This document shows, one piece after another, positions 49,151 through 64,000 of a stretch of DNA of 64,000 nt. Numbering within the stretch: the first letter of the stretch is position 1; the number at the start of each line of letters is the position of its first letter. Source of the stretch: Plantactinospora endophytica (GTDB lineage Bacteria > Actinomycetota > Actinomycetes > Mycobacteriales > Micromonosporaceae). The DNA is taken from contig NZ_BONW01000028.1 in the NCBI RefSeq assembly GCF_016862915.1, positions 186,001-250,000 on the forward strand. The letters run 5' to 3'. The notes under the pieces were generated by a model that made no database searches, was not told the origin of the DNA, and saw only the letters and a list, made by a program, of their open reading frames with translations. A program made the translations under genes and the position numbers.

Positions 49151-50347
49151 ATGACCGAGTCCATGGGTACGCGCGCGATCACCACGTTGCCGCCGTGCCA
49201 CCACCCCGGGCGCCCGGTGCTCGTACCGGTCGCCGCGCCGCGCGGAGCGGAGCGGGAACTTCCCCGTACCGCGACGGTGAACCGCCCGGCCGCCTGGGCT
49301 CGTCCGCCTGGTCCGGGCGGCGCGCTCTCGACGCACCAACCGTCCGTCGATCACCGGCCGACGGTGCTGGTGGAGGTGGCCAGGCTCGGCATCGCCGACT
49401 CGCCCCGGCTGGCGGGGGAGGATCCGGACCACGTGCGGCTGCTCGCCGGCATCGAGGCGTCGTTGCCGCCGATCCTGGTGCATCGGCCGACGATGCGGGT
49501 GATCGACGGGGTGCACCGGCTGCGGGCCGCCCAGTTCCGCGGTGACGAGCGGATCGCGGCCGTCTTCTTCGAGGGTGACGCGGCGGCGGCGTTCGTCCGG
49601 GCGGTCGAGGAGAACACCGCGCACGGCCTGCCACTGTCGCTGTCCGACCGGGAGGCGGCTGCCACGCGAATCGTAGGGTCCCATCCGCACTGGTCGGACC
49701 GGGCCATCGCGACGGCCACCGGGCTGGCCGCCAGAACGGTCGCCGGGATCCGGAGCCGTGCAACTGCGGCGGATCCGCAGTTGCACGTCCGACTGGGCCG
49801 GGACGGTCGGGTGCGGCCGGTCGACATCGGCACCGGCAGGCGGCGTGCGGCCGAGTTCATCAGAGCCAACCCGGACGCATCACTGCGCCAGGTCGCGAAG
49901 GTGGTCGGCGTCTCGCCGGGCACCGTACGCGACGTCCGGGAACGGCTCCGCAAGGGACTCGATCCGGTCCCGGCCGGCGCCCGGAACCCGAGCGGGTCGG
50001 CGCGGGCAGTCGGCCCGCCCCGTCGGTTGCCGGACCGGGTCGCGCCGGAGTCGCAGCGGGAGCGGTTGCGCAACCTCGCCCGGGACCCGGCGCTGCGGCA
50101 CACCACCGTGGGCCGGGAGGTGATCCGTTGGCTCGACGTGCACCTGATCGGCACCGAGGACTGGGCGGACCTGCTGGACGCGGTGCCGCCGCACTGCGCG
50201 TACCTCATCGCGGAGATGGCGCTGGACTGCGCGGCTGCGTGGCGCGAGCTGGCCGGCGGGCTCGAACGTCGGATCCAGGCCACGGGCGAACTTGATCCGG
50301 GCGGTGCCGACGGCGTACCGGAGGCTGCGACGAGGGTGGGCAGGTGA
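49151..50347 (+). CDS. StrR-type pathway-specific regulator (ParB-like)
   Basis: This 398-residue protein belongs to the StrR/NovG group of antibiotic-pathway activators with a ParB-like N-terminal part. It shows SPRLAGEDPDHVRLLAGIEA, LPPILVHRPTMRVIDGVHRL and FFEGDAAAAFVRAVEENTAH, all very close to the conserved StrR core, followed by helix-turn-helix segments (WSDRAIATATGLAARTVAGI, SLRQVAKVVGVSPGTVRDVR). The ATG follows GGAGGG. It overlaps the downstream N-oxygenase gene (GTGA). Such regulators bind inverted repeats in promoters of their own gene cluster. It marks the probable left end of a biosynthetic cluster. Confidence 0.9.
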   Translation: MTESMGTRAITTLPPCHHPGRPVLVPVAAPRGAERELPRTATVNRPAAWARPPGPGGALSTHQPSVDHRPTVLVEVARLGIADSPRLAGEDPDHVRLLAGIEASLPPILVHRPTMRVIDGVHRLRAAQFRGDERIAAVFFEGDAAAAFVRAVEENTAHGLPLSLSDREAAATRIVGSHPHWSDRAIATATGLAARTVAGIRSRATAADPQLHVRLGRDGRVRPVDIGTGRRRAAEFIRANPDASLRQVAKVVGVSPGTVRDVRERLRKGLDPVPAGARNPSGSARAVGPPRRLPDRVAPESQRERLRNLARDPALRHTTVGREVIRWLDVHLIGTEDWADLLDAVPPHCAYLIAEMALDCAAAWRELAGGLERRIQATGELDPGGADGVPEAATRVGR

Positions 50348-51117
50348 AGCCGCTGTCCGGGGAAACATCGTTGCCCGGCTCGGCAGCGGACGCCGGACCG
50401 GTGCCGGACGGTGTGCGGCGCCTGGTCGAGGCGCAGCTTCGAGCCCTCGTGCTGGACGGTCCGTTTCCCTGCCTGGGCGCGCGGTCGGCGTTCCGGGTGG
50501 GCAGCTATCTGTTCAACGTCCACCACGAGCTGGGCGCGGCGGGAAGCACCCGGAGCCTCGCTGCCGACCTCCGCCACTTCCGAGAGGTGCGGCGCCGGAT
50601 GGGCGACCTCTACACGTACGTGGGGAGCTTCCTGGAGCCCCGCGTGGTCGGCGACGAGCGGGACTGGGACCGACTGGTGTGGGGCGTGCTCCAGGACCTG
50701 CACGACCTGGACGACGAGCCGTGGGATGTCCGGTACTCGACCGATCCCGGTCGCGCCGACTTCGCGTTCTCGTTCGCCGGGCTCGGGCATCTGGTGGTGA
50801 CGCTCTATCCCGGCGCGTCCCGGTACGCCCGCCGCTTCGCGTGGCCGACGCTGATATTCAATCCGCCGGAGCAGGACCGGGCGAAGTTTCCCTCCGACGA
50901 GGAGTTCCTGCGGTTCCAGGACAAGATCCGCGAGCGTGATGCCCGGTTGCAGGGATCCGTCAACCCGTCCCTGCCGGACACGCTGGACGATCCGCAGGCG
51001 CCGGGATTCTCCGGTGCGCCGGTCGACCCGGACTGGAACTGTCCATTGCAGATCCGCGACGGGGGCGTCCCGGCGCGGCGAGAGACAGCGCCGGGTCCGA
51101 TTCCGTCCGACCGCTGA
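50344..51117 (+). CDS. YqcI/YcgG-family heme protein, possible N-oxygenase
   Basis: The 257-residue protein matches the YqcI/YcgG family: FPCLGARSAFRVGSYLF, RRRMGDLYTYVGSF, WDRLVWGVLQDLHDLDD, YPGASRYARRFAWPTLIFNP, RERDARLQGSVNPSL and the C-terminal DWNCPLQI. Members in natural-product clusters have been reported as heme-dependent enzymes that oxidise amine or guanidine nitrogens, for example in guanitoxin, belactosin/hormaomycin and cycloserine pathways; that link is from memory. Here the substrate may be an arginine-derived unit of the cluster. The GTG start overlaps the StrR-type stop. A hairpin follows, so these two form a short operon. Confidence 0.85.
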   Translation: MKPLSGETSLPGSAADAGPVPDGVRRLVEAQLRALVLDGPFPCLGARSAFRVGSYLFNVHHELGAAGSTRSLAADLRHFREVRRRMGDLYTYVGSFLEPRVVGDERDWDRLVWGVLQDLHDLDDEPWDVRYSTDPGRADFAFSFAGLGHLVVTLYPGASRYARRFAWPTLIFNPPEQDRAKFPSDEEFLRFQDKIRERDARLQGSVNPSLPDTLDDPQAPGFSGAPVDPDWNCPLQIRDGGVPARRETAPGPIPSDR

Positions 51118-51137
51118 TCGCTCGACGGAGAATGTGC

Positions 51138-51153
51138 CCCGCCGCACGGCGGG
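51138..51153 (+). terminator. Small hairpin after the N-oxygenase gene
   Basis: CCCGCCG and CGGCGGG form a 6-7 bp stem with a very short loop, 20 bases after the stop. The rest of 51118-51355 has no gene. Confidence 0.4.
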
Positions 51154-51294
51154 CGCCCGGACCGGTGTGGGACCGCAATTTCCTACCATTCTGATGGGTT
51201 GTGCCGTGCCTGCTCGTGAACCAGCGACAATCCGCACCCGGACAGTTCGGGCCGGAAATTGTGCGGCCGTTCGTGTGCGACCACGTCACCGACC

Positions 51295-51325
51295 TTGACC
51301 GACGCCGATCCGGCTGAGTTACATA
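51295..51325 (+). promoter_or_regulatory. Candidate promoter of the main biosynthetic operon
   Basis: TTGACC (51295-51300) and TACATA (51320-51325) with a 19-base spacer stand 31 bases before the TTG start at 51356. It is AT-richer than its surroundings. The ribosome binding site GGGGGAG follows at 51344-51350. I could not find a clear StrR-type inverted repeat here. Confidence 0.45.
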
Positions 51326-51355
51326 ACAGCGTCGACGTGAAACGGGGGAGTTACA

Positions 51356-52318
51356 TTGACGACGTTGCCAACGGCTGCGGGCCACGTGGTGAGTCTGCGC
51401 CCCGCCGAGTCCGCCCCGATGTGGCGGGCCGGCGACGAGGTCCTGCGGGCGACCGATCTCGCCCGGTCCGACCCGGACGAGTTGACGGCCGCCGCCACGG
51501 CCGTGGCCGCCGCGATCCCGTCGGCGCTGGTCCGGGCGGTACACAGCTATCGGAGCCGGGCCGAGCACGGTGACGTACTGCTGATCCGGGGGACGTTGCC
51601 GGAGACGGACTTCGGTGCCAACCCGTCGGCGTCGGCGGCGCCGCTGGCGGGCCACGGCGTCCAGCACGCCGCCCTCCAGCTCCTCGGGATCATGATGCTG
51701 CTCGGCGAGCCGTTCAATTTCCGGACGCTCTACGAGGGAAAGCTCGTGCAGCACGTCGTACCGGCGCCGAACATGGAGTTCACCCAGACCAGCGAGAGCA
51801 GCAGCGGAATGCTCGACTGGCACGTGGAGGACGGCTTCAGTCCCGACCGCTGCGACTATTTCGGCCTGCTGTGCCTGCGCGGATCCGAGGCGGCGGTGAC
51901 CCGTTACGCCGCCGCACGCGACGTCGTACTCGACGAGCGGACCCGAAGGATTCTCGGCGAGCCGCGCTTCGAGATGGCGCCCGATTCGGCGCACGTTCTC
52001 GACGATGATTCCCCCTGCCGTACGCCGGTGCTTTCCGGTGCGCCCCATGCCCCGGAGATCTGTTACGACGACCACTACCTCACCCCGCTGGACGGGGAGG
52101 CAGCGGAGGCACTGCGCGAACTGCGTACGCAACTCGACGCCGTGCACCAGGGACACGTACTGCGTACCGGCGATCTCCTGGTCGTCGACAACCGCCGGGT
52201 CGTGCATTCCCGTACCCCGTTCACCGCCCGGCACGACGGCACCGACCGGTGGCTGCTGCGCACGATGGTCTGCGCCTCGCTGCCCCGGTTCCGGGCCCGT
52301 GGCCGGCGCATCATCTAG
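51356..52318 (+). CDS. VioC-like Fe(II)/2-oxoglutarate oxygenase (arginine-hydroxylase type)
   Basis: This 320-residue enzyme belongs to the clavaminate-synthase-like oxygenases, which hydroxylate free amino acids such as arginine or asparagine at carbon 3. The iron site is visible: His156 and Glu158 in DWHVEDGFSP, and distal His284 in NRRVVHSRTPF; Arg of GTDRWLLRTM would bind 2-oxoglutarate. Other family-typical parts are YFGLLCLRGSE and the N-terminal ALQLLGIMMLLGEPF. The start is TTG at 51356 with GGGGGAG upstream. In viomycin- and streptothricin-type pathways VioC/OrfP act on arginine; arginine is therefore the likely substrate, not proven. First gene of the long biosynthetic operon. Confidence 0.87.
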   Translation: MTTLPTAAGHVVSLRPAESAPMWRAGDEVLRATDLARSDPDELTAAATAVAAAIPSALVRAVHSYRSRAEHGDVLLIRGTLPETDFGANPSASAAPLAGHGVQHAALQLLGIMMLLGEPFNFRTLYEGKLVQHVVPAPNMEFTQTSESSSGMLDWHVEDGFSPDRCDYFGLLCLRGSEAAVTRYAAARDVVLDERTRRILGEPRFEMAPDSAHVLDDDSPCRTPVLSGAPHAPEICYDDHYLTPLDGEAAEALRELRTQLDAVHQGHVLRTGDLLVVDNRRVVHSRTPFTARHDGTDRWLLRTMVCASLPRFRARGRRII

Positions 52319-52331
52319 AAGGAATCCGCTG

Positions 52332-53615
52332 GTGTCGAAGGTTGTGCTTCTCGTCGGCGCGGTCGAGCACCGCGAACTGGCCCTGCGTACCGGGCTGGAG
52401 CGGGGCCACCGGATCGTCCTGGTGGAGGAGGCCACCTCGCCGTTGCTGCCCTGGGCGCACCTCGCGGTACCGGTGCCGGACATCCTGGACGCCCGAGGCG
52501 TGCGGGCCGGGATCGACCGGGCGGTCCGGCTGGCCCGCCCCGACGGGATCCTCACGCTCTACGACGAGCTGTTCCCGCTCGTCGCGGAGGTGGCTGCCGA
52601 CCTCGGGCTGCCGTTCGTCGATCCGGGCGCGGCGCTGCGCAACGCCAACAAGATCGAACAGCGCACGGCGCTGGAGAAGGCGGGTGTGCCCATCCCCGAG
52701 TGGGCGACCTGCACGGACCTGGCATCGGCGCGGGAGGCTGCGGCACGCGTCGGCTATCCGGCCATTCTCAAGGCGGCCGACCAGACCGGGTCCGGCAAGA
52801 TCCGGATCCCCGGCCCGGGTGAGCTGGCGGCGGGCCACGCCCGGCTCGCCGGCGCCCGGTCGGCCGACGCGCCGCCGCTGTTGGTCGAGGAACTGGTGCA
52901 CGGCCAGGAGTACAGCGTCGAGGCGTTCGTGTGGCACGGCCGGCCGACCCCGATCTGCGTCACCCACAAGACCACCACCGGGGGCGAATATCCCGTCGAG
53001 CTCGGACACGCGCTGCCGTACCGGGGTCGGGACGTCGACGCGGTGGTGACGGCGGCGCTCGACGCGGTCCGCGCGGTCGGTGTCGACCACACCCTCGTGC
53101 ACGTCGAGGTCTTCCGCACCCTGACCGGTCCCCGGGTGGTCGAGGTGAACGCGCGCTCCGGCGGCGACTACATCATGGACCTGGTCGCCCGGTGCGGCGG
53201 CGCCAACCCGTACGACATCGTCTACGACCTGAGCCTGGGCCGGGCGCCGAGCTGGCATCCGACCTGGCGCGGGGCGGCGGCGATCCGGTTCCTCGTGGCC
53301 GACCGCGCGGGCCGGTTCGCCGGCATCACGGGGGTCGACGCCGCCCTCGCCCTCCCGGGGTTCCACCAGGTCGGCGTCGACCGGCAATCCGGTACGCCCG
53401 TCCGGCGTCCCCGGGGCGGCGAGGACCGGCTCGGCTGGGTCGTCGCCGACGGGGCGGACTGGCGGCAGGCGCGGGACCGGGCCGAGCGCATCGCCGCCGG
53501 CCTGACGCCACGGATCATCCATCAACTGGGGCCACGGATCAGCACCGAGCTGGCGGCGCAGGCCGAGCCGACCGACGGCACCGGCGTCGACGACGACTGG
53601 GAAGCGGGGATCTGA
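52332..53615 (+). CDS. ATP-grasp amino-acid ligase
   Basis: This 427-residue enzyme has the ATP-grasp fold of carboxylate-amine ligases that build dipeptides. After a substrate-binding N-terminal domain (KVVLLVGAVEHRELALRTG) come PAILKAADQTGSGKI (ATP-binding strand), LLVEELVHGQEYSVEAF, and VEVNARSGGDYIMDLV (Mg-binding Glu and Asn). It resembles BacD/DdaF-type L-amino-acid ligases. GTG at 52332 has AAGGA upstream. It would activate a carboxyl group as acyl phosphate and join it to another unit of the product. Coupled to neighbours within 13 bases. Confidence 0.88.
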   Translation: MSKVVLLVGAVEHRELALRTGLERGHRIVLVEEATSPLLPWAHLAVPVPDILDARGVRAGIDRAVRLARPDGILTLYDELFPLVAEVAADLGLPFVDPGAALRNANKIEQRTALEKAGVPIPEWATCTDLASAREAAARVGYPAILKAADQTGSGKIRIPGPGELAAGHARLAGARSADAPPLLVEELVHGQEYSVEAFVWHGRPTPICVTHKTTTGGEYPVELGHALPYRGRDVDAVVTAALDAVRAVGVDHTLVHVEVFRTLTGPRVVEVNARSGGDYIMDLVARCGGANPYDIVYDLSLGRAPSWHPTWRGAAAIRFLVADRAGRFAGITGVDAALALPGFHQVGVDRQSGTPVRRPRGGEDRLGWVVADGADWRQARDRAERIAAGLTPRIIHQLGPRISTELAAQAEPTDGTGVDDDWEAGI

Positions 53616-54413
53616 GTGCACGGATACACCTCGTCGACGTACGGCAACCGCATCGCGGACATCTACGACCAGCCGGGGCAGACGCCGGTGGACGCCGATC
53701 GGGCCGCGGCGTTCCTGCACGACCTCGCGGCCCGGGCGGCGGCGACCGGGGGCGGCGAGCCACCCCGGGTACTGGAATGGGGCGTCGGCACCGGTCGGGT
53801 GGCGATTCCACTGGCCGCGCTCGGCTGCGACGTCGCCGGGGTGGACACCTCGGAGGCCATGCTGGCCCGCTGCCGTGCCGCCATGCTGACGCGCCGCCGA
53901 ACCACCGAGGCGGGCGGTCGGCTGCGGCTGTCGATCGGCGACATGACCGGGATACGGGTCGACGGGGCGCCGTTCCACGTCGTCTACGCGGCCTTCAACA
54001 CGCTGCTGCACCTGCTGACCCAGGAGGAGCAGGTGGCCGCGTTCGCCAACTCGGCGGCGCAGCTCGGCCCCGGTGGCGCGGTCGTGGTGCAGGTGAACGT
54101 GCCGGACGTCGGGCGCCTCCGGGACGGCCAGCAGGTACGGGTCTTCGAGGTGGAGACGGCGTACGTGGACCTGAACATCACCCTGCACGACCCGGTCCGG
54201 CAACAGCTCCGAACCCAGCAGATGATCATCAAGGAGGGCGGAGCGGAACTACGCCCGCTGATGCAGCGGTACGTCTGGCCGAGCGAACTGGACCTGATGG
54301 CCCGGCTCGCCGGGCTACGGCTCACGGCCCGGTACGCCGACTGGACCGGCACCCCGTTCACCGCCGAGAGCACCGAACACGTCTCGGTCTACCGTCCGGC
54401 CGAGGAGCGCTAG
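53616..54413 (+). CDS. SAM-dependent methyltransferase
   Basis: This 265-residue class I methyltransferase has motif I VLEWGVGTGRVAIPLA (residues 50-65), the acidic end of strand 2 in VDTSEAML, and a motif IV-like stretch FHVVYAAFNTLLHLL. It would methylate N, O or C of a pathway intermediate. GTG at 53616 directly follows the TGA of the ATP-grasp gene. The target cannot be told from sequence; the C-terminus (LRLTARYADWTGTPF) is standard for small-molecule methyltransferases. Confidence 0.9.
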   Translation: MHGYTSSTYGNRIADIYDQPGQTPVDADRAAAFLHDLAARAAATGGGEPPRVLEWGVGTGRVAIPLAALGCDVAGVDTSEAMLARCRAAMLTRRRTTEAGGRLRLSIGDMTGIRVDGAPFHVVYAAFNTLLHLLTQEEQVAAFANSAAQLGPGGAVVVQVNVPDVGRLRDGQQVRVFEVETAYVDLNITLHDPVRQQLRTQQMIIKEGGAELRPLMQRYVWPSELDLMARLAGLRLTARYADWTGTPFTAESTEHVSVYRPAEER

Positions 54414-54415
54414 CC

Positions 54416-55864
54416 ATGCCGACCCTGGAGATCCCGTTCGCGCCGTGGCGGTTCATGCTGGCCGTCGACGCCGTGAACTACGCCCTCGGCGAGCAGGTCG
54501 ACTACCGGACGCGCCACGCGGCTGACCCGGTCGTCAACCTCTCCTCCGGGGTCAACCTCACCGAGCCGCCGTGGGAACTGGTCGACTTCGCGCTCGGCGC
54601 GGCCCGCGATCCGCTGTTCTGGCACGACTACGACGGGCCCGACGGCCATCTCGTGGGCCGGGCCGCCGTGGCGGCGTACGAGGCAACCTGGGCCGGGGTG
54701 CCGGTCGGGGTGGAGAACGTGCTGGTCACCGCAGGCGCCAGCGCGGCGCTCGCGCTCGTCGCCCGAGGACTGCATCCCGGTACCGGTGCCGGGGCGCACG
54801 CCGTGCTGCCGGCGCCGACGTTCCCGCTCGCCGGCGCGGCCCTCGCCGACGCGGGTTTCCGGATCGGCGAGGTGACCTCCGAGGAGCCGGACCGGTGGCT
54901 GCCGACGGTCGACGAGCTGATCGCCGCCGCCACCGGCGACACCCGGGTGGTGTACGTCAACACGTTCAACAACCCGACCGGCGAGCGGTACGACGAGGCC
55001 GAACTGCGCAAGCTGGTCGGCTGGGCGCGTGAGCACCGGGTGACGGTGCTGCACGACACCGTCTCGTCCGACGTGGCCTCGGTCGGCGGGCTGCCGCACC
55101 TGCTGTCGATCGCCGCCGAGGAGGACTACCCCGGCGGCGTCGTCACCGTCGGCAGCCTCTCCAAGTCGCGGGCCGTACCCGGCTTCCGGATCGGCTGGCT
55201 GGTCGCCGACGCCGACCTGATCGCCCGGCTGGCCGGCTTCAACGAGCTGATCGCGCCCTCGTCGCCAGGGCTGGCCGCGCCGGCTCTGCTGATGGACCGG
55301 ATGCTGGCGGCGGTACCGCATCACGGGCGTGGGTCCGCGACGGTCGACGACGGTGATCGCGGTCCGGCGGTCCTGACCGACGGCAAGCTGTCCACTTCGG
55401 ACGAGCTCTGGCACCGCGTCGAGGAGCTGCTGCGGCCGTACCACGCCGGGCTGCCCGGGCTCCGGGGATTCCTCGACCGGGCCGGGGCACTGCTGGGTAC
55501 GCCAGCAACCGCGAACGGCCTCGCCGGATGGCGGGACTCGCTGCGGCAGACCCTGGCCGGGAACGTGGCCTCGCTGGCCGGCTGGGGGGAGACGATCGTG
55601 GCGGGGCCGCCGTGGCGGGGAGACTTCAACACCTTCGTACGGCTTCCGGCGCTGGACGGATGCGACGCCCTGGCCACGACCCACCGGCTGTTCCGCGAGT
55701 ACGGCGTGCAGACCCTGCCCGCTCCGGCCTTCGGGCACTCGGCCTCCTGGTGGCGCCGGCACGGATACTTCCTCCGGCTCTCGTTCGCGCTTCCGCCCGC
55801 CCGGTGGCAGGAAGGGCTCGCCCGGCTCTCCGCCGCCTGCGAGAGGCTGTCCGCCGATGGCTAG
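54416..55864 (+). CDS. Fold-type I PLP-dependent enzyme (aminotransferase class I/II)
   Basis: This 482-residue PLP enzyme has LSSGVNLTEPPWEL, TAGASAALALVARG, NTFNNPTGE (substrate-phosphate side), VLHDTVSSD (PLP-pyridine Asp) and VGSLSKSRAVPGFRIGW with the Schiff-base Lys250. It is longer than typical members, with an acidic insertion of about 45 residues around 300-345. In tuberactinomycin and streptothricin pathways a homologous PLP enzyme (VioD/OrfR) cyclises beta-hydroxyarginine to capreomycidine. That is the attractive role beside a VioC-like oxygenase, but a simple aminotransferase is equally possible. It overlaps the LanB-like gene by eight bases. Confidence 0.85.
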   Translation: MPTLEIPFAPWRFMLAVDAVNYALGEQVDYRTRHAADPVVNLSSGVNLTEPPWELVDFALGAARDPLFWHDYDGPDGHLVGRAAVAAYEATWAGVPVGVENVLVTAGASAALALVARGLHPGTGAGAHAVLPAPTFPLAGAALADAGFRIGEVTSEEPDRWLPTVDELIAAATGDTRVVYVNTFNNPTGERYDEAELRKLVGWAREHRVTVLHDTVSSDVASVGGLPHLLSIAAEEDYPGGVVTVGSLSKSRAVPGFRIGWLVADADLIARLAGFNELIAPSSPGLAAPALLMDRMLAAVPHHGRGSATVDDGDRGPAVLTDGKLSTSDELWHRVEELLRPYHAGLPGLRGFLDRAGALLGTPATANGLAGWRDSLRQTLAGNVASLAGWGETIVAGPPWRGDFNTFVRLPALDGCDALATTHRLFREYGVQTLPAPAFGHSASWWRRHGYFLRLSFALPPARWQEGLARLSAACERLSADG

Positions 55865-58280
55865 CCGCACGCCGTGGCAGCTCTTTCCGGTCGGGCTGCT
55901 GCGCTCGGCGGGGTTGCCGTTCGAGTGGCTCGACGACCTCGGACGGCCGGAGCTGGACTCCCGGGCGGACGCGGCGGCGGCCAGCGCGGCGGAACTGGGC
56001 CGGGTGCGTACCGAGGTGATCGCCGGGTTGAAGCGGGCGCAGGCGGAGTGCGGACCCGAGCAGCGGCCGGCCCTGAACCGCACCCTCAAGGCCGTGATCC
56101 ACTATCGACCCGCCCCCGCCGTCCCACCGGTCGCCGCCCCGGTCACGCAGCGGTGGCAGACTGCCGTGGCGGCACACCACGCGGCCGAGGCCGCCCTGAC
56201 CGCGTCGCTCGCCACCGCCCTGGCCACCGAACGTGAGCTGCTGCGCAAACGCGCGTACGACGAGGCGTTCCTCGAGGGCGTGCTGATGTCCAGCCCGCAC
56301 GCCCACGACGAGCTGGTCCGGTCGGTGGAACGCGGCCGGATGAGCACGCGGATCGAAACCACCGCCTACCGCTACCTCCAGCGCTTCTGCGCCAAGGCGG
56401 AGACGACCGGACACGTCGGACCGCTCAGCCTGGTCCGGGTCGGCGACGCGTACCCGACTCCGGCCGGCTCGGGCGTCCGTGCCGTGTACCGCGATCCCGT
56501 ACTGGGCGAACTCGCCTACTGGTGCCTGGGCGACGGTCGCCGGGGGCGACGCCGTACCTCGATCAGCTTCTGGGCGGCGGAGGCGCTGGCGGAGGCGGTG
56601 CTGAGTGATTCCGTACTCGGGATTCGGCTGCGCCGGCCGCGCCGGGTAATCGGCGTCGGGTACGCCGGGCTGAGCCCCGCCGAGCGCGCGGTGCTGGACC
56701 GGGCCGACGGCAGCCGGACGCTGGCCGGCATCGCGGCCGAGCCCGGCCTGGGCGAGACCGTCGAGATCGCCACCGCACTCGCCGGACGCGGTCTCCTACG
56801 ACTCGACCGGCATTTCCGCGACCACACCGCCGATCCCGGAGCCGACCTGCGCGGACTGCTCGCCGGCACGGACGCGCCCGCAACCGCCGAGGTGGCAGCC
56901 CTGCTCGACGACATCACCCGGTTCGCCGACCTCCGGTATCCGCGTCGCCCCGCCGCGCTGTCGGCGCTCGCCGACCGGTTCACCACGCTGACCGGCCGGG
57001 CCGCCTGGCGCGGCGGCGGACGCATCTCGGCCGACCGCGCGATCCTCTACGAGGACGCCCTCGACAACGTCCGCGGACTGCGCATCGGCGGCGCCGGGGC
57101 GGGGCGGCTGGCCGACCGGCTCGGCACCGTGCTGGACCTGCTCGCCTCGTTGGCGATCGACGAGCGCGTCGCGGGGCAGCGGGAGCTGGACCAACTGCTG
57201 CGCGGGCGGGGCTGCGCCGACCTGCCCGCCACGGAGGTACGGCGGTGGTCCCCGTCCCTTCCGGCCGGCGCGACCGAGCTGCTGGCCCGACTCGTCGACC
57301 CGGCGGTGGCGACGGTCCGGCTGACCCGTGCCGACCTGGCGGCCGGCGGCCTCATCCGCCCGGACCTCGACCGTTGGCCCCTCTTCGGTGCCGCCGACCT
57401 CATGCTCGTCGGCGAGCCTGGGGCCGGCCCGCAGACGGTCGGCGGCCGGGGACCGGACGACGGCGGTGAGCCGCTCGTCGTGCTCAGCGAACTGCACCAC
57501 ATCTGGCCGCTGTTGGCCCGACCGGTGCGCGGCCTCTACCCCGACGAGCAGCTCGGCGTACCGCAGCTCGGGCGGCTGCTCGCCGAACAGCTCGCCCCCG
57601 CCCAGCCGACGGTGCAGGAGATCCGGCGTGCGCAGAAGGGGACCGACAACTCGCCGGCCGGACACCGGCTGCTCTGCCTCGACACCACGTCGCCAGAGCC
57701 GGGCGCGGTGTCAGTGGACGACCTGCGGGTACGGCGCTGGGCGAACGGGTTCATCGGACTCCACGACCCGCACACCCGTCGGGACCTGTGGCTGCTGCCC
57801 GAGTACGACGACACCGACGTACCGGTCGGCGGGCTGGTGCACTGCACGACGCCCGCCCTCGAACTTCCCCGGATCAGCGTCGGCGAACACACCCCGCGCA
57901 TCGTGGTGGACGGGGTGGTGCTGCAACGCCGCCGCTGGGATCCGCGACCCACCGACGTGCCGACGTTCGGCGGGCCGGAGCCGACCGCCCGGGACTGGCG
58001 CCGGCTGCACGACTGGCGGCGCCGGCTCGGCCTGCCCCGGCACGCCTTCTACCTGGCCGACGCCGAGGCCAAGCCGATGTTCCTGGACTTCGGGTCGGTG
58101 CTGTCGGTGCGCAGCTTCGTCCGCACTGTCGGTACGGCGACCGCCATCACCCTGACCGAGATGCTCCCCGAGCCGCCGCGACTGTGGCTGGGTACGCCGG
58201 ACGGCACCCTGACCTCCGAGCTGCGCACGCTGTGGTGGCGGGGCCGGGCACCCGTACCGGCCCGTCCCGAAGGAGGCTGA
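55857..58280 (+). CDS. Short LanB-like protein (lantibiotic dehydratase N-domain, PEARL-like)
   Basis: This 807-residue protein matches the N-terminal, tRNA-dependent glutamylation domain of LanB lantibiotic dehydratases: WQLFPVGLLRSAGLPFEWLD at the N-terminus, then YRYLQRFCAKAETTGHVGPL at about residue 172, and an Arg-rich middle. It lacks a clear second elimination domain (SpaB C-terminal), so it resembles short LanBs or PEARLs, which add an amino acid from aminoacyl-tRNA to a peptide. No precursor peptide gene was found nearby. The ATG overlaps the PLP-enzyme stop. It may transfer an aminoacyl-tRNA unit onto a small substrate here; that is an inference. Confidence 0.82.
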   Translation: MASRTPWQLFPVGLLRSAGLPFEWLDDLGRPELDSRADAAAASAAELGRVRTEVIAGLKRAQAECGPEQRPALNRTLKAVIHYRPAPAVPPVAAPVTQRWQTAVAAHHAAEAALTASLATALATERELLRKRAYDEAFLEGVLMSSPHAHDELVRSVERGRMSTRIETTAYRYLQRFCAKAETTGHVGPLSLVRVGDAYPTPAGSGVRAVYRDPVLGELAYWCLGDGRRGRRRTSISFWAAEALAEAVLSDSVLGIRLRRPRRVIGVGYAGLSPAERAVLDRADGSRTLAGIAAEPGLGETVEIATALAGRGLLRLDRHFRDHTADPGADLRGLLAGTDAPATAEVAALLDDITRFADLRYPRRPAALSALADRFTTLTGRAAWRGGGRISADRAILYEDALDNVRGLRIGGAGAGRLADRLGTVLDLLASLAIDERVAGQRELDQLLRGRGCADLPATEVRRWSPSLPAGATELLARLVDPAVATVRLTRADLAAGGLIRPDLDRWPLFGAADLMLVGEPGAGPQTVGGRGPDDGGEPLVVLSELHHIWPLLARPVRGLYPDEQLGVPQLGRLLAEQLAPAQPTVQEIRRAQKGTDNSPAGHRLLCLDTTSPEPGAVSVDDLRVRRWANGFIGLHDPHTRRDLWLLPEYDDTDVPVGGLVHCTTPALELPRISVGEHTPRIVVDGVVLQRRRWDPRPTDVPTFGGPEPTARDWRRLHDWRRRLGLPRHAFYLADAEAKPMFLDFGSVLSVRSFVRTVGTATAITLTEMLPEPPRLWLGTPDGTLTSELRTLWWRGRAPVPARPEGG

Positions 58281-59651
58281 ATGCGGCTGCACGCCGAGTT
58301 CGTCGCCCACCTCGACCGACACCGCGACCGGGCGGCGGTCGCACTCCGTACCCTGGCCGGTGGGCTCGCCGACAACCAGGTGATGCAGTGGTCGCCGAAG
58401 CTGCGGGCCCCGCTCGGCGCGGTGCCGCTGCTGCTCGACGCCCCGGACCACCGCGTCCTCACCGAGGTGGGACGGGTCGTCGGCGACCTGCTGCCCCGGC
58501 TGCCCCGGATGCTCTTCGGCGATCTCGACGGGGCGATGGACGCCTTCGGCGTACCGGCCGACATGCGGCCGTTCATCCGGGCCGAGGTGCCCCGGGAGAT
58601 ACCCGTGGCGCGGACCGACTACCTGCTCGGCGACGAGGGCTGGCGGCTCCTCGAGGTCAACAACGGCGCCTCGGTCGGTGGCCTGCTGGTGGGCGACTAC
58701 GACCGGCACGTACGCGCCGAACCCTTCCTCGCCGAGTTCCTCGACGCGCACCGGGCCGGTAACGTCGCGCCGGTCGACGTACTGGTCGCCGAGGTGCTGG
58801 CGCACTGCGCCGACCTGCCGGTCGAGGAGCGGCCCCGGGTCGCGATCGTCGACTGGGCCGGGTACCTCGACGACTTCCCCCTCGAATACCCGCAACTCGC
58901 CGCCCGGTACCGGGCCGGCGGCCTGGACCCGGTGGTGTGCGCCCAGACCGAGCTGCGGTACGCGCACGGGCGGCTGTGGCACGGAGGGCTTCCGGTACAC
59001 GCGGTCCACCGGGACTTCGTCATCGAGGACCTGACCGAGGACGCCGAGTCGGCCCACCCGGTCCTCGCTGCGGCCGAGAACGGCGACGTCGTGCTGGTGT
59101 CCGGATTCCGCCACGAGTGGCTGGCGCACAAGGGCTCGTTCGCCATGCTGCACGAGGCCGCCGGTCGCGGTCTGCTCACGGCGGCGGAACGGGACGTGGT
59201 CGACCGGTACGTCCCGCAGACCTGGATGCTGACCGGAGGCGGTCCGGAGCCCTGGCGGTTCGCCGGGCTGGGCGGCGCCGACCCGCTGCCCCTCGCCCCG
59301 GAGCGGCTCATCGTCAAACCGTGCGTCGGCAGCCTCGGCGCGGGCGTGGTGATCGGGGCGCTGCGGGCGGCCGAGGAGTTCCGGAACGCGGTCCGGGAGG
59401 CGGCCACGGCGACGCCGTCCGTACTGCAACGGCTGGTCGCACCGGTGCCGGTGCCGTTCCCGTGGCTGCGGCCGGCCGGAGCCGGCGAGGACGTCGACAT
59501 CGACGTCGCCCAGATCCAACCCGGCCTGTTCACCGTGGCCGGTCGCCCGTCCGGGTGGTGGTGCCGGCTGCTGCCCGATTCGACGCCGGCCGTCGCGAAC
59601 GCCCTGCACGGGGCGGCGCGCGGCAGTACCTGGTGCGAGGCGCCACGATGA
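58281..59651 (+). CDS. Permuted-type ATP-grasp ligase candidate
   Basis: This 456-residue protein has YLLGDEGWRLLEVNNGASVGG and RLIVKPCVGSLGAGVVIG, which look like the metal-binding and phosphate-binding elements of a circularly permuted ATP-grasp (glutathionylspermidine-synthase-like) ligase. VDIDVAQIQPG near the C-terminus may hold further Mg ligands. It would be a second amide-forming enzyme. The ATG starts directly after the LanB-like stop with AGGAGG upstream; it overlaps the next gene by ATGA. The family call is moderate; an ATP-grasp-like protein seems clear but the exact subfamily is not. Confidence 0.72.
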   Translation: MRLHAEFVAHLDRHRDRAAVALRTLAGGLADNQVMQWSPKLRAPLGAVPLLLDAPDHRVLTEVGRVVGDLLPRLPRMLFGDLDGAMDAFGVPADMRPFIRAEVPREIPVARTDYLLGDEGWRLLEVNNGASVGGLLVGDYDRHVRAEPFLAEFLDAHRAGNVAPVDVLVAEVLAHCADLPVEERPRVAIVDWAGYLDDFPLEYPQLAARYRAGGLDPVVCAQTELRYAHGRLWHGGLPVHAVHRDFVIEDLTEDAESAHPVLAAAENGDVVLVSGFRHEWLAHKGSFAMLHEAAGRGLLTAAERDVVDRYVPQTWMLTGGGPEPWRFAGLGGADPLPLAPERLIVKPCVGSLGAGVVIGALRAAEEFRNAVREAATATPSVLQRLVAPVPVPFPWLRPAGAGEDVDIDVAQIQPGLFTVAGRPSGWWCRLLPDSTPAVANALHGAARGSTWCEAPR

Positions 59652-60631
59652 TCTACCAGGCCGCTCACGCGATCGTCACCGACGACGTCTTCCTGGCGCT
59701 GCCCCGCTTCGCCGACCGGGCGGACGTCGAGCTGTACCTGAAGATCGAGGCGCTGAATCCGGCGGGCTCGATCAAGCTCAAACCGGCGGTATGCATGATC
59801 GAGGACGCCGAACGCGACGGGCTGCTCGTCCCGGGGTCCCGGATCATCGAGTCCTCCTCCGGCAACCTCGGAACTGCACTCGCCATGGTCTGCGCGGCGA
59901 AGGGCTACCGGCTCACCATCGTGACGGACCTCAACGCCAACCGGGCCGCCGTGGACACGATGCGCTGCCTCGGCGCCACGGTCACCGTGATCGCCACCCC
60001 GGACGCCGGCGGCGGGTTCCTCAGTGGTCGGATCGCGCACATCCACCGGGCGCTCGCCGCCGATCCGGGCCTGGTCTGGCTCAACCAGTACGCGAACCCG
60101 GCCAACCCACGGGCACACCGTACCCACACCGCGAGCAGCATCCACAAGGAGTTCGGCACCGTCGACGTGCTGTTCGTCGGCGCCGGCACCACCGGAACCC
60201 TGGTCGGCTGCGTGGACTACTTCCGCGAGCACTGTCCGCAGACCCGGATCGTCGCGGTGGACGCCGAGGGCTCCGTCACCTTCGGCGCGCCGCCGGGCGT
60301 ACGGCACCTTCCGGGTCTGGGCACCAGCGTCCGGCCCGCCATCCTGGGGGACGGTCGCGGCGACTTCGACACCTGCCAGGTCAGCGAGGTGGACAGCATC
60401 GCCACCTGTCGGGAGGTCGCCCGACGGTACGGCCTGCTGGTCGGTGCCTCCACCGGCAGCGTCCTCGCCGCCGTCCGCAGCCTGATCCCCACCATCGTGC
60501 CGGGCTCCCGGATCGTCGCGATCAGCCCGGATCTCGGCGACCGGTACCTGGAAACGGTCTACGACGACTGCTGGACCGCCTCCCGGTACCCGTCGTCCGG
60601 GTTGCCGCCGACCGGAGGCATCGTTGCCTGA
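59648..60631 (+). CDS. SbnA-like PLP synthase (2,3-diaminopropionate-type)
   Basis: This 327-residue fold-type II PLP enzyme is of the cysteine-synthase family. The PLP lysine is Lys43 in NPAGSIKLKPA; SSSGNLGTAL and GAGTTGTL (phosphate cup) are intact. The closest functional type seems to be SbnA, which makes N-(1-amino-1-carboxyl-2-ethyl)-glutamate from O-phosphoserine and glutamate on the way to 2,3-diaminopropionate; viomycin VioB is of this type. No SbnB/ornithine cyclodeaminase partner is visible up to the window edge. It could instead make another beta-substituted alanine, as DcsD does in cycloserine biosynthesis. Confidence 0.87.
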   Translation: MIYQAAHAIVTDDVFLALPRFADRADVELYLKIEALNPAGSIKLKPAVCMIEDAERDGLLVPGSRIIESSSGNLGTALAMVCAAKGYRLTIVTDLNANRAAVDTMRCLGATVTVIATPDAGGGFLSGRIAHIHRALAADPGLVWLNQYANPANPRAHRTHTASSIHKEFGTVDVLFVGAGTTGTLVGCVDYFREHCPQTRIVAVDAEGSVTFGAPPGVRHLPGLGTSVRPAILGDGRGDFDTCQVSEVDSIATCREVARRYGLLVGASTGSVLAAVRSLIPTIVPGSRIVAISPDLGDRYLETVYDDCWTASRYPSSGLPPTGGIVA

Positions 60632-62054
60632 GCGTCAGGTGGTGTCGACGACGGTGGCCGGGGACAGGCTGGGCGGTGCCTACTGGCGGTACTGGGCTGC
60701 CACCACCTCGACCAACCTCGCCGACGGTATCCGGGCCGGCGCGTTTCCGCTGCTCGCGGCGGCGCTCTCCGGAGAGCCCGTCGGGGTGGCCGCCGTGTTC
60801 GCCGCGCAGCACGGCGCGTGGCTGGTCTTCGGGCTCTACGCCGGGGTGCTCACCGACCGCCATCCGCCGGCCCGGATCCTGCTGGTCGCCGACGTGTGCC
60901 GGGTGGCCGTGCTGGTGCTGCTGCTCGGCTGCGTCGCCGTCGAGGTGGCCACCATCGGGCTGCTGGTCGCCGTCGCCTTCGTGATCGGCACGGCCGAGAC
61001 CTTCCGGGACACGGCGGCACCGAGCCTGCTGCCTCGGCTGGTCGGCGACCGGCTGCTCGAACGGGCGGCCGGCCGCCTGCTCAGCAGCGAGGTTCTCGGC
61101 AACGAGTTCCTGGGACCGCTGCTGGGCGCGGCGCTGTTCGCGGTCGCGACGGCGCTGCCCCTGGCCACGGACGGCCTGGTGCTCGCCCTCGCCGTGGCAC
61201 TGGTGTTCTCCCTGCCCCGCACCATCCGATCGGCAGCACCGCAACCCCCCAGGACGGTGCCGGCCGCGCCGCAACCCGCTCCGACGGCACCGGCCGTGCC
61301 GGAACCCGCTCCGACAGTGCCGGCGGCACCGACACCCGCTCCGATGGTGCGGGCGGTGCCGGAACCCGCCCCGACGGTGCCGGCCGCGCCGGAGCCGGGG
61401 ATGCCGAATCCGGTGGTGGCCGGGTCGCGGCTGCGTGCCGAGCTCGGGGTGGGGATCCGGTGGCTGGCCCGGCACCGGCAGCTCCGTACCGTCACCGCCT
61501 CCGGCACTCTGCTCGCGTTCGCCGACGCGGCGTGGTGGGCGGTCCTGGTCGTCTTCGCGACCGACGTCCTGCACCTTCCGCCGGCCGGCTACGGCCTGCT
61601 GCTCGCCGCCGGGGCGGCCGGCGGAGCCGGCGGGGGACTGGCCGCCGAGCGACTCGCCCGGTACGCCGGGCCGGTGCCGTTGCTGACCGGGGCGGTACTC
61701 GTCGCCGGCCTGCCCGCGCTGGCGCTGGCCGTCGCGCCACCGCTGCCGATCGTGCTACCGGTGCTGGCGCTCAGCAGCGCCGGCTTCGCGGTGTGGAACG
61801 TGATCGCGTTCTCCAACCGGCAGCGTCGCACCCCGGCCCACCTGTTCGGTCGGGTCACCTCGGTGCACCGGGTGGCCCTGTGCGGCGGCTCGACGCTCGG
61901 CGCGCTGGCCGGAGGCTGGGTCACCAGCGCGATCTCCCTGACCGCGATGTTCGCCCTCGCCGGTGCCGTCACGGTCGTCGCCGCCGCAGTGCAGGCGAGC
62001 GCCTGGGGCGCCGACGGTGCCGGCTCCCCGTCGAGAACCGGGCCGCCATGCTGA
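60624..62054 (+). CDS. MFS exporter with proline-rich repeat loop
   Basis: This 476-residue transporter is of the major facilitator superfamily with about 12 helices, of the enterobactin-exporter/MFS_3 type (LADGIRAGAFPLLAAALSG, VLTDRHPPARILLVADVCR). TTG at 60624 has GGAGG upstream and overlaps the SbnA-like gene. Between helices 6 and 7 the central loop has five or six degenerate 10-residue repeats of the type VPAAPEPAPT (residues about 205-260), encoded by 30-bp repeats. It likely exports the product and gives self-protection. The loop length is unusual for the family. Confidence 0.87.
   Translation: MPERQVVSTTVAGDRLGGAYWRYWAATTSTNLADGIRAGAFPLLAAALSGEPVGVAAVFAAQHGAWLVFGLYAGVLTDRHPPARILLVADVCRVAVLVLLLGCVAVEVATIGLLVAVAFVIGTAETFRDTAAPSLLPRLVGDRLLERAAGRLLSSEVLGNEFLGPLLGAALFAVATALPLATDGLVLALAVALVFSLPRTIRSAAPQPPRTVPAAPQPAPTAPAVPEPAPTVPAAPTPAPMVRAVPEPAPTVPAAPEPGMPNPVVAGSRLRAELGVGIRWLARHRQLRTVTASGTLLAFADAAWWAVLVVFATDVLHLPPAGYGLLLAAGAAGGAGGGLAAERLARYAGPVPLLTGAVLVAGLPALALAVAPPLPIVLPVLALSSAGFAVWNVIAFSNRQRRTPAHLFGRVTSVHRVALCGGSTLGALAGGWVTSAISLTAMFALAGAVTVVAAAVQASAWGADGAGSPSRTGPPC
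61255..61402 (+). repeat. 30-bp coding minisatellite in the exporter gene
   Basis: Five degenerate 30-bp units encode a VPAAPxPAPT repeat in the central cytoplasmic loop of the exporter. Copy number could vary between strains by slippage. Confidence 0.7.
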
Positions 62055-63046
62055 TCGACAACGATCCGGACCCGCTGCGGCGTATCCACCGGCCCGAGTT
62101 CCTGCCCGGCCTCGTGTCGTGGGCGGCGGCCCGCTGCGACCTCGGCCCGGTGTACCGGTACCGCGTCTGCACGGTCGGCTACGACGACTGCAATCTCCTG
62201 GTGGAAACCGGCACCGGACGGTACGTGTTCAAGGTCTTCACGATCCACCGGCCGGAGCCCCTGACCACCCGGTACGTCGAGGTGATCCGTACCGTGCTCG
62301 CGGCCGGGGTGCGGCACCCCCGCCTGCACCCCAGCACCGGCGAGGCACTGCTGTGCCACCCACCGTCCGGTAACCGCCTGATCGTGATGGACCACCTGGC
62401 CGGCGGCACGTTCCTCGACCGCGACGGACATCCCAACGCCGACCAGCTCACCGACCTGATGGCGCAGGTGGGCCGGATCCATCGGATCGAGCGGGACTTC
62501 GCGCCGGTGCCGGACTGGTGGGCGGTGCACGAGATCGACACGCTCGCCCGCGAGATGCTGCCGCTGCTGCCGGCCGACGACCGGGTCGAGGTGGAGCGGG
62601 CGGTGGCGTCGTTCGGCGAGGTCGACCGGGCGGTCCTGCCGCACGTGCTGGTGCACGGCGACCTCACCAAGGCCAACGTGCTGCCCACCTCGCCGCACCA
62701 GGTGGCGATCCTCGACTTCGCGGTCGCCAACCGCTGTCCACGGGTGCATGAGCTGGCGATGGTCGTGGTCAACCTCATGCACGGCGATCCCCGGTCGCTC
62801 GGGGAGCGGGTCGACGCCCTGCTCGGGATGTACCCCGCCGCGCCGCTCACCCCCGCCGAACACCACGCGCTGCCCCGGTACGTGCACGCGACCGCCGCGA
62901 TGGAGCTGCTCGGTGCGGCCCGGGAGTGGGTGCTCAAGGGCAACCGCAGCGACGAGACCCGCTACCTCATCGGACTCGGGCGGGCCGGCCTGCGCGCCGC
63001 CCGCCGGTACCTGGAGGACGGCGCTTCCGTCCGGAGGCGTCGGTGA
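62048..63046 (+). CDS. APH-type phosphotransferase
   Basis: This 332-residue kinase is of the aminoglycoside phosphotransferase/choline kinase fold. It has YVFKVF (ATP Lys), the catalytic loop VHGDLTKANVL (His203, Asp205) and ILDFAV (Asp223). ATG at 62048 overlaps the exporter gene by seven bases. In viomycin and capreomycin pathways, Vph/Cph phosphorylate the product for self-resistance; a role as resistance kinase or as a step phosphorylating an intermediate fits here. The substrate is not known. Confidence 0.88.
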   Translation: MLIDNDPDPLRRIHRPEFLPGLVSWAAARCDLGPVYRYRVCTVGYDDCNLLVETGTGRYVFKVFTIHRPEPLTTRYVEVIRTVLAAGVRHPRLHPSTGEALLCHPPSGNRLIVMDHLAGGTFLDRDGHPNADQLTDLMAQVGRIHRIERDFAPVPDWWAVHEIDTLAREMLPLLPADDRVEVERAVASFGEVDRAVLPHVLVHGDLTKANVLPTSPHQVAILDFAVANRCPRVHELAMVVVNLMHGDPRSLGERVDALLGMYPAAPLTPAEHHALPRYVHATAAMELLGAAREWVLKGNRSDETRYLIGLGRAGLRAARRYLEDGASVRRRR

Positions 63047-63065
63047 CCCGTCGGAAGGATCAGAG

Positions 63066-64000
63066 ATGTCCCGTACCACCGCCGTGAACTCGTGGGACGA
63101 GTTCACCCAGCTCCGTGAGATCGTCGTGGGCGACGCCACACATGCCCGGGTACCCCGGATGACCGACCCCTCCGCGTGGCTCGCCTGCTATCCGACCCTC
63201 ACCCCGACCGAACTCGGGGCCGTGCACCAGGGCGAGTTCCCCCGCCAGGTGGTCGAGGAGTCGAACGAGGACCTGGCCGAACTGGTGGAGACGCTCCGCG
63301 AGTTGGGGGTGAAGACGCACCGCCCGCCCGCCGTCGACCACCGCCGGGAGTTCACCAGCCCGGACTGGTCCGCCGACGGCTACATCTCCTACTGCCCGCG
63401 AGACCTCACGCTCATCGTGGGATCCACGATCATCGAGGTACCCAGCCCGATGCGCTCCCGCTACTTCGAGGTCTTCAACCTCCGACCATTGTTCCAGGAC
63501 TACCTGCGGGAGGGAGCCGGCTGGATCGCCGGGCCCCGCCCGCAGCTCCGCGACGACCTGTTCGAGTGGGACGACCTCGGCCGTCCGCTGCTCGGTGAGG
63601 CGGAACCGGTGTTCGACGCCGCGAACGTGCTCCGGCTCGGCCGGGACCTGTTCTACCAGGTCTCCCGCAGCGGCAACGAGCTGGGCATGCGGTGGCTCGC
63701 CTCGACGCTGCGCCTGATCGATCCCGAGCTGCGGCTGCATCCGCTGCGCGGGGTATACGGCTACACGCACATCGACAGCACCATCGCCCTGCTGCGTCCC
63801 GGTCTGGTCCTGCTGAACCCGGAACGGATCACGCCGGACGCCGTTCCGGAGCCGTTCGACACGTGGGACATCCTGTGGTGCCCGGAGATCGCCACCGCAC
63901 CGACCGCGTTGCCGCACACCCTCAGTGAGCGGTGGATCAGCATGAACCTCCTGATGGTCAACCCCGAGACCGCGATCGTCGACGCGGACCAGCCGGCGCT
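63066..64000 (+). CDS. Amidinotransferase (incomplete at the window edge)
   Basis: The reading frame starts with ATG at 63066 (GGAAGGA upstream) and runs off the right edge after 311 codons. It matches glycine/inosamine amidinotransferases (AGAT, StrB1, AmtA), which move the amidino group of arginine to an amine. It has EPVFDAANVLRLGRDLFYQ (Asp184), GYTHIDSTIALLRPGLVLLN with His235 and Asp237, and LNPERI. The catalytic Cys would lie beyond the window. With an SbnA-like enzyme it may guanidinylate a diaminopropionate-type unit, or make homoarginine as in phaseolotoxin. A minus-strand frame overlapping it is a shadow. Confidence 0.88.
   Translation, partial: MSRTTAVNSWDEFTQLREIVVGDATHARVPRMTDPSAWLACYPTLTPTELGAVHQGEFPRQVVEESNEDLAELVETLRELGVKTHRPPAVDHRREFTSPDWSADGYISYCPRDLTLIVGSTIIEVPSPMRSRYFEVFNLRPLFQDYLREGAGWIAGPRPQLRDDLFEWDDLGRPLLGEAEPVFDAANVLRLGRDLFYQVSRSGNELGMRWLASTLRLIDPELRLHPLRGVYGYTHIDSTIALLRPGLVLLNPERITPDAVPEPFDTWDILWCPEIATAPTALPHTLSERWISMNLLMVNPETAIVDADQPA

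Follow-up and report, generated by a model that had tools for sequence, protein, structure and literature searches.

Pseudouridimycin and pheganomycin biosynthesis provide the nearest published logic found, within excerpts of the sources, for a 12-gene biosynthetic cluster in Plantactinospora endophytica that lies at the right-hand end of a stretch of 64,000 nucleotides analysed here (the window; positions 186001-250000 of contig C28 in a 9.68 Mb genome of 90 contigs). Two ATP-grasp carboxylate-amine ligases, an amidinotransferase (AMT) and an N-hydroxylase are common to this cluster and to the pseudouridimycin pathway (PumK, PumM, PumN and PumE), with the latter having a nucleoside core and a flavin N-oxygenase as features of its own, while the gene table given for it holds no LanB-like, SbnA, VioC-group or GntC-like genes (excerpt of PMC6586884). 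Pheganomycin is mentioned in the excerpted text of PMC8939145.

Likeness to the tuberactinomycin pathway (VioC, VioD and VioB) extends to the oxygenase superfamily, a fold-type I pyridoxal phosphate (PLP) enzyme and a diaminopropionate synthase, but the VioC and VioD equivalog cut-offs are missed here and the window cluster has no nonribosomal peptide synthetase (NRPS). Tuberactinomycin clusters use NRPSs. Dapdiamide-type pathways are NRPS-independent and share with this cluster the combination of diaminopropionate and ATP-grasp ligation, although they are not known to involve LanB-like proteins, N-oxidation of a guanidine or transfer of an amidino group. For three window proteins the best-scoring named models are the guanitoxin enzymes GntA, GntC and GntD, with only the GntA cut-off being passed; the guanitoxin pathway is cyanobacterial and is not known to include ligases. 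The original prediction, made from the DNA letters and translated reading frames, did not recognise this gene combination as a described pathway, and no description of it was found among the papers listed in a literature search that did not extend to MIBiG. The cluster probably makes a small guanidine-rich, peptide-like metabolite that is assembled without an NRPS, with the evidence leaning modestly towards the proposed route as a whole.

The sequence confirms a genuine, compact cluster of 12 co-directional open reading frames on the + strand, which run from 49151 to window-equivalent position 64136, with the last gene being cut by the window end. In keeping with the tight coupling originally claimed, adjacent genes overlap by 4-8 bases or are separated by 0-19 bases, the sole larger gap being one of 238 bases between 51117 and 51356. 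Family, PDB sequence or predicted-fold evidence backs 11 of the 12 original gene labels, the exception being the StrR-type regulator. This first gene (49151..50347, 398 aa, with an alternative GTG start at 49364) encodes a helix-turn-helix-type regulator matching only helix-turn-helix families and a few models below cut-off, with no model for a ParB-like N-terminal domain among its Pfam and NCBIfam matches.

The genome holds a second, diverged copy of the cluster on contig C4 in the order L-amino acid ligase (LAL), methyltransferase, PLP enzyme, LanB-like protein, second ATP-grasp ligase, major facilitator superfamily (MFS) protein, APH-type kinase and AMT joined in frame, YqcI protein, oxygenase, SbnA and SbnB. 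The same order is found in Streptomyces megasporus, at 74-89% identity to the C4 copy. The methyltransferase is 82% identical between these two copies, with the window protein being 54% identical to that of C4 and 53% to that of S. megasporus, while dN/dS between the two copies for 11 genes, methyltransferase excluded, is 0.19-0.42. In Actinophytocola xanthii the LAL and second ATP-grasp genes lie around 8 kb from the AMT gene, SbnB is present, a frame 44% identical to the window regulator stands beside the set and a search of all but 67 bases of the contig at E 1 gave no match to the methyltransferase. The notion that A. xanthii had swapped its LAL and second ATP-grasp ligase for an NRPS was rejected, both genes being found elsewhere on the same contig. 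Ten gene types are common to the four copies (YqcI, VioC/GntD-like oxygenase, LAL, PLP enzyme, LanB-like protein, second ATP-grasp ligase, SbnA, MFS protein, kinase and AMT), such that the LanB-like, SbnA and VioC/GntD-like genes, whose conserved co-occurrence had been proposed as a check, travel together in all of them. The AMT is the most conserved at 73-89% identity, the minimum pairwise identity of the other genes being 35%.

Relatives of the set are rare. With the LanB-like protein as query, 22 of 394 genomes of the class matched at 1e-5, strongly only in the own genome (next best 8.5e-16), and 22 of 350 genomes of the family matched at 1e-20, with the own genome, G803 and G869 reaching 1e-200 or better; in the genus of G039 the one match among 295 genomes at 1e-40 was S. 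megasporus. The AMT query matched 5 of 396 genomes of the phylum at 1e-60, with identity of at least 70% only in the own genome. A contig scan with two peptide patterns returned 520 stretches, four of which encode relatives, namely A. xanthii, S. megasporus and two Omnitrophota metagenome-assembled genomes (LanB-like proteins at L049:432-2726 and L050:7819-10191, the latter with frames nearby that were interpreted as a methyltransferase and as a radical SAM protein of the B12-binding kind).

The original prediction that the pathway is NRPS-independent would have been undermined by an NRPS megasynthase just to the right of the window. Extension of the contig revealed no condensation domain match from the cluster to the contig end, and the nearest condensation domain on C28 (116036-117379) lies to the left, around 118 kb from where the cluster begins. 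For S. megasporus, contig C16 carries the LanB-like gene and the 12 condensation matches all fall on that genome's own contigs C4 and C1. NRPS-free assembly is therefore well supported for the window and S. megasporus copies.

The LanB-like protein (55857..58280, 807 aa) has no Pfam or NCBIfam family above cut-off, its predicted structure being a LanB glutamylation-domain fold in which the elimination domain is absent. The same architecture characterises the peptide aminoacyl-tRNA ligases (PEARLs) TglB, AmmB and BhaB, whose residues for the ATP and tRNA steps have putative counterparts here by position. PEARLs, unlike LanB dehydratases, need ATP, with Glu813, Arg815, Asp558, Arg34 and Arg208 of one PEARL being important for phosphorylation or tRNA binding (excerpt of PMC11962472). 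E788-x-R790, E545, R16 and R176 are identical in all 11 aligned proteins and were paired with the residues in that excerpt by motif and position only, the alignment containing no reference PEARL.

In a tree of 58 rows, among which there is no reference PEARL or LanB, the LanB-like proteins of the window, C4, A. xanthii, S. megasporus, G869 and G803 form one separate branch with a long stem (SH-aLRT 100), a seventh row on this branch (L039) being a duplicate of the C4 protein. The rows came from 43 of 46 loci with a frame of 550-1300 aa (L019, L028 and L040 were dropped) and 15 added by coordinates; several are fragments of around 600 aa, and identical or nearly identical pairs were left in (L022/L042, L021/L044, L026/L046, L060/L080_c and L061/L081_a). 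The genes of loci L077 and L079 were taken from tblastn and open reading frame lists. The LanB-like protein would activate a carboxylate with ATP and then add an amino acid from aminoacyl-tRNA. We tentatively propose, at rather less than even confidence, that it belongs to a carrier-free PEARL branch, activating the carboxylate of a small guanidino acid or dipeptide made by the ATP-grasp ligases and extending it with a tRNA-borne amino acid, so that three stand-alone ligases form one assembly line.

PEARLs are described as acting on precursor peptides (excerpt of the 2026 review PMC12945691), and a pearlin-type pathway could operate here, in which a small ribosomal peptide from another locus would receive a residue through the LanB-like protein, that residue being modified on the peptide and then released. 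The glutamylation fold is consistent with this, as are the close tree neighbours, which include LanB proteins of L080 and L081 from clusters with PEARL-scaffold-like peptides, and a weak winged-helix match in the C4 LanB-like protein. A search for such a carrier covered short frames lying in gaps longer than 60 bases, using gene coordinates called in this analysis, together with a six-frame search for the end motif [ILV]AP[LMI][AGS]; an all-against-all comparison of short frames was discarded in its favour as dominated by coding-region noise. Both control clusters, which carry multiple LanB-like genes, were positive, with one peptide ending IAPLG and the other containing KIAPLALA, but no end-motif carrier peptide was found in the window, C4, A. 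xanthii, S. megasporus or G869 clusters, the motif being narrow enough to miss an unusual carrier. Two further matches (C4 and A. xanthii) fall inside longer genes or antisense to them, and with gene starts as called here the interior of the C4 cluster has no gap of more than 60 bases. The scan speaks against a carrier that bears the known motif and is encoded in the cluster, but not against an unusual carrier or one supplied in trans. A pearlin-type pathway is rather unlikely. The cluster here also differs from those of PEARLs in its companions, two ATP-grasp ligases and guanidine enzymes.

Loci L080 and L081 themselves are likely pearlin-type pathways: each combines multiple LanB-like genes with a short, acidic peptide in which IAPLG forms the end or IAPLALA occurs. 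To the right of the C4 copy lies a further LanB-like protein (L012:17265-19457; Lant_dehydr_N 81.3 bits against a cut-off of 28) and a 5-aminolevulinate-synthase-type gene (L012:3269-4582; 520.7 against 338.55), with condensation-domain pieces sitting between the two.

The proposed route also draws on two ATP-grasp ligases that would form amide bonds. The LAL (52332..53615) matches LAL_C2 at 65.7 bits against a cut-off of 29.4, while the second (58281..59651, 456 aa), of the glutathione/glutathionylspermidine synthetase type, passes no Pfam or NCBIfam cut-off and gave no PDB sequence hit at E 10, its assignment being based on a predicted glutathione-synthetase-type ATP-grasp fold over the whole chain. 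With the LanB glutamylation-type fold, these make joining by ATP-grasp and aminoacyl-tRNA chemistry, as originally suggested, the best reading of the assembly step. The protein family of the second ATP-grasp ligase is common, with matches at 1e-5 in 132 of the 350 genomes of the taxonomic family, and an LAL-type match lies near other members at four of six loci (L095, L097, L098 and L099), with none listed near those of L096 and L100; the linkage between the two genes is not general.

A cluster in G869 retains a LanB-like protein (45% identity), a second ATP-grasp ligase (29%), an LAL-like ATP-grasp protein (30%), an AMT (43%) and an MFS protein (28-29%), with no match at 1e-8 within 30 kb to the oxygenase, PLP enzyme, YqcI protein, SbnA, kinase or methyltransferase; its other frames were read as ATP-grasp, aldehyde dehydrogenase and class III aminotransferase. 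The presence there of the ligases and AMT without the amino-acid-making genes of the window cluster fits these being the assembly part. Among the loci sampled for the second ATP-grasp family, the member is fused to another ATP-grasp part at L095:5592-8201 and to a part read as MFS-like at L097:7114-9762, and at L099 it has two LAL matches nearby, along with a frame interpreted as a paralog of class I aminoacyl-tRNA synthetases, arrangements reminiscent of systems predicted in PMC2922099, as excerpted.

The YqcI/YcgG heme protein (50344..51117) is a predicted guanidine N-hydroxylase, matching PF08892 at 120 bits and exceeding the NCBIfam GntA cut-off (168.8 against 145), in agreement with the N-oxidation enzyme originally proposed. 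It matches AglA weakly (1.3e-4) with a cysteine aligned that is identical in all four copies, and YqcI/YcgG proteins characterised to date hydroxylate guanidines (excerpts of PMC12866846 and PMC10849742). In the proposed route it would N-hydroxylate the guanidine of an arginine-type residue. The Fe(II)/2-oxoglutarate oxygenase (51356..52318; TauD), in which the WHVED motif and the distal His and Arg motifs are identical in the four copies, would C-hydroxylate this residue. Its earlier description as VioC-like holds at the superfamily level, the best named model being GntD, itself below cut-off. The fold-type I PLP enzyme (54416..55864) belongs to PF00155, the class I/II aminotransferases. As both enzymes score higher to GntD and GntC than to VioC and VioD, with none of the four cut-offs passed, the VioC/VioD-type steps first envisaged were not upheld. 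GntC turns gamma-hydroxyarginine into enduracididine (excerpt of PMC10367076), and the GntC-like enzyme here may rearrange and probably cyclise the hydroxylated residue, though the formation of a cyclic arginine is something we only infer.

These matches could also be expected of a guanitoxin-like small molecule, a cyclic N-hydroxyguanidine that is N-methylated and possibly phosphorylated, to which the ligases add a masking or delivery group, and the methyltransferase and kinase would suit such a product. The GntC and GntD cut-offs are however missed by far, the C4 YqcI protein falls just below that of GntA (143.7 against 145), the window cluster has only one fold-type I PLP enzyme, and SbnA, AMT and the ligases are not known to be needed for guanitoxin, making this an improbable explanation.

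The SbnA-type synthase (59648..60631; PALP) scores 378.3 bits to TIGR03945 against a cut-off of 349.95 and its best PDB match is SbnA 5d87 (1.5e-60), with cysteine synthases at 3.3e-45 or weaker, such that the window copy has good support for its predicted identity as SbnA and the diaminopropionate enzyme of the original prediction is retained. The own genome has an SbnB gene above cut-off on each of C39 and C42, with C4 carrying a weaker one, and SbnA acting with SbnB from another genome locus would yield L-2,3-diaminopropionate. DNA matches to the SbnA gene also occur at C39:370001-371546 and C42:246691-248630, with the above-cut-off SbnB genes and near condensation domains.

The APH-type small-molecule kinase (62048..63046; PF01636 65.7 bits, with the best NCBIfam model, of homoserine kinase type, below cut-off) is adjacent to the AMT in all four copies. 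The AMT (63066..64000, continuing to window-equivalent 64136) has no Pfam or NCBIfam hit, its best PDB match being StrB1 (1bwd, 5.7e-87). In the C4 copy kinase and AMT occupy one open frame (L014:9068-11245), in which an internal ATG after a purine-rich stretch could still start a second protein, and in S. megasporus a stop and around 126 bases lie between them. The streptomycin pathway proceeds by phosphorylation followed by amidino transfer from arginine to an amine. By analogy the kinase-AMT pairing suggests the same phosphorylate-then-amidinate order here, in which the pair would pass the amidino group of arginine to an amine, although the twelve genes include no inosamine genes; the amidination originally predicted stands as to the enzyme. 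The S-adenosylmethionine methyltransferase (53616..54413), for which the best named model, a daptide methyltransferase, is below cut-off, would cap a nitrogen, and the predicted MFS exporter (60624..62054; MFS_1 77.1 bits) would export the product.

A number of observations weigh against this route. The VioC, VioD, GntC and GntD cut-offs are all missed (171.5 against 418.6, 75.4 against 390.9, 133 against 415 and 221.7 against 345 bits respectively), which leaves room for different chemistry at the arginine steps. SbnB is absent from the window copy, the C4 SbnA is below cut-off and the C4 and S. megasporus SbnA proteins are only 39-42% identical to that of the window, hence the copies may not all use the same diamino acid. 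The winged-helix match in the C4 LanB-like protein (HTH_47, 22.4 against 27.1 bits) may reflect a domain that recognises a peptide, with the carrier encoded at another site, and the lack of a reference PEARL in the alignment weakens the residue comparison. Finally, two condensation matches lie around 5 and 13 kb right of SbnB at the C4 copy, and the A. xanthii set shares its contig with several condensation domains and frames read as polyketide synthase-like. With these NRPS parts nearby, the original claim of NRPS independence is too simple for the A. xanthii and C4 copies. Such surroundings in A. xanthii, together with the 46 condensation-domain matches of the own genome, would suit genes that provide an NRPS at another locus of the genome with building blocks (modified arginine, diaminopropionate and a guanidino acid). 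Little credence is given to this, since three stand-alone ligase-type genes travel with the set, A. xanthii included (LAL 38-40%, second ATP-grasp ligase 35-40%), and the S. megasporus cluster contig has no condensation match.

Beyond the AMT gene, a 47-aa frame at window-equivalent 64414-64557 (L013:17414-17557) carries three VAY(S/A)P repeats (3 matches against 0.01 expected, for a pattern built from the repeat itself), with a SagB-type dehydrogenase beside it at window-equivalent 64629-65762 (L013:17629-18762; 110.6 against a domain cut-off of 78.4). The two possibly form a separate ribosomally synthesised and post-translationally modified peptide system. They were not adopted as cluster members because no SagB match is among the genes listed for A. 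xanthii and S. megasporus, because a further SagB match is lacking in the own genome at 1e-30 and hence also at the C4 copy, and because SagB relatives (40-42%) occur in two of six other genus genomes that have no LanB-like match at 1e-20.

The two diverged copies in one genome and a further one in S. megasporus provide natural comparisons. If the carrier-free reading is correct, tRNA-dependent ligation by LanB-like proteins would not be tied to carrier peptides and could be used on small molecules beside ATP-grasp ligases, with the cluster offering a compact route to N-hydroxylated guanidine compounds. Searches for NRPS-independent peptide antibiotics would likewise gain in breadth; such compounds may be missed where neither an NRPS nor a precursor peptide marks the locus.

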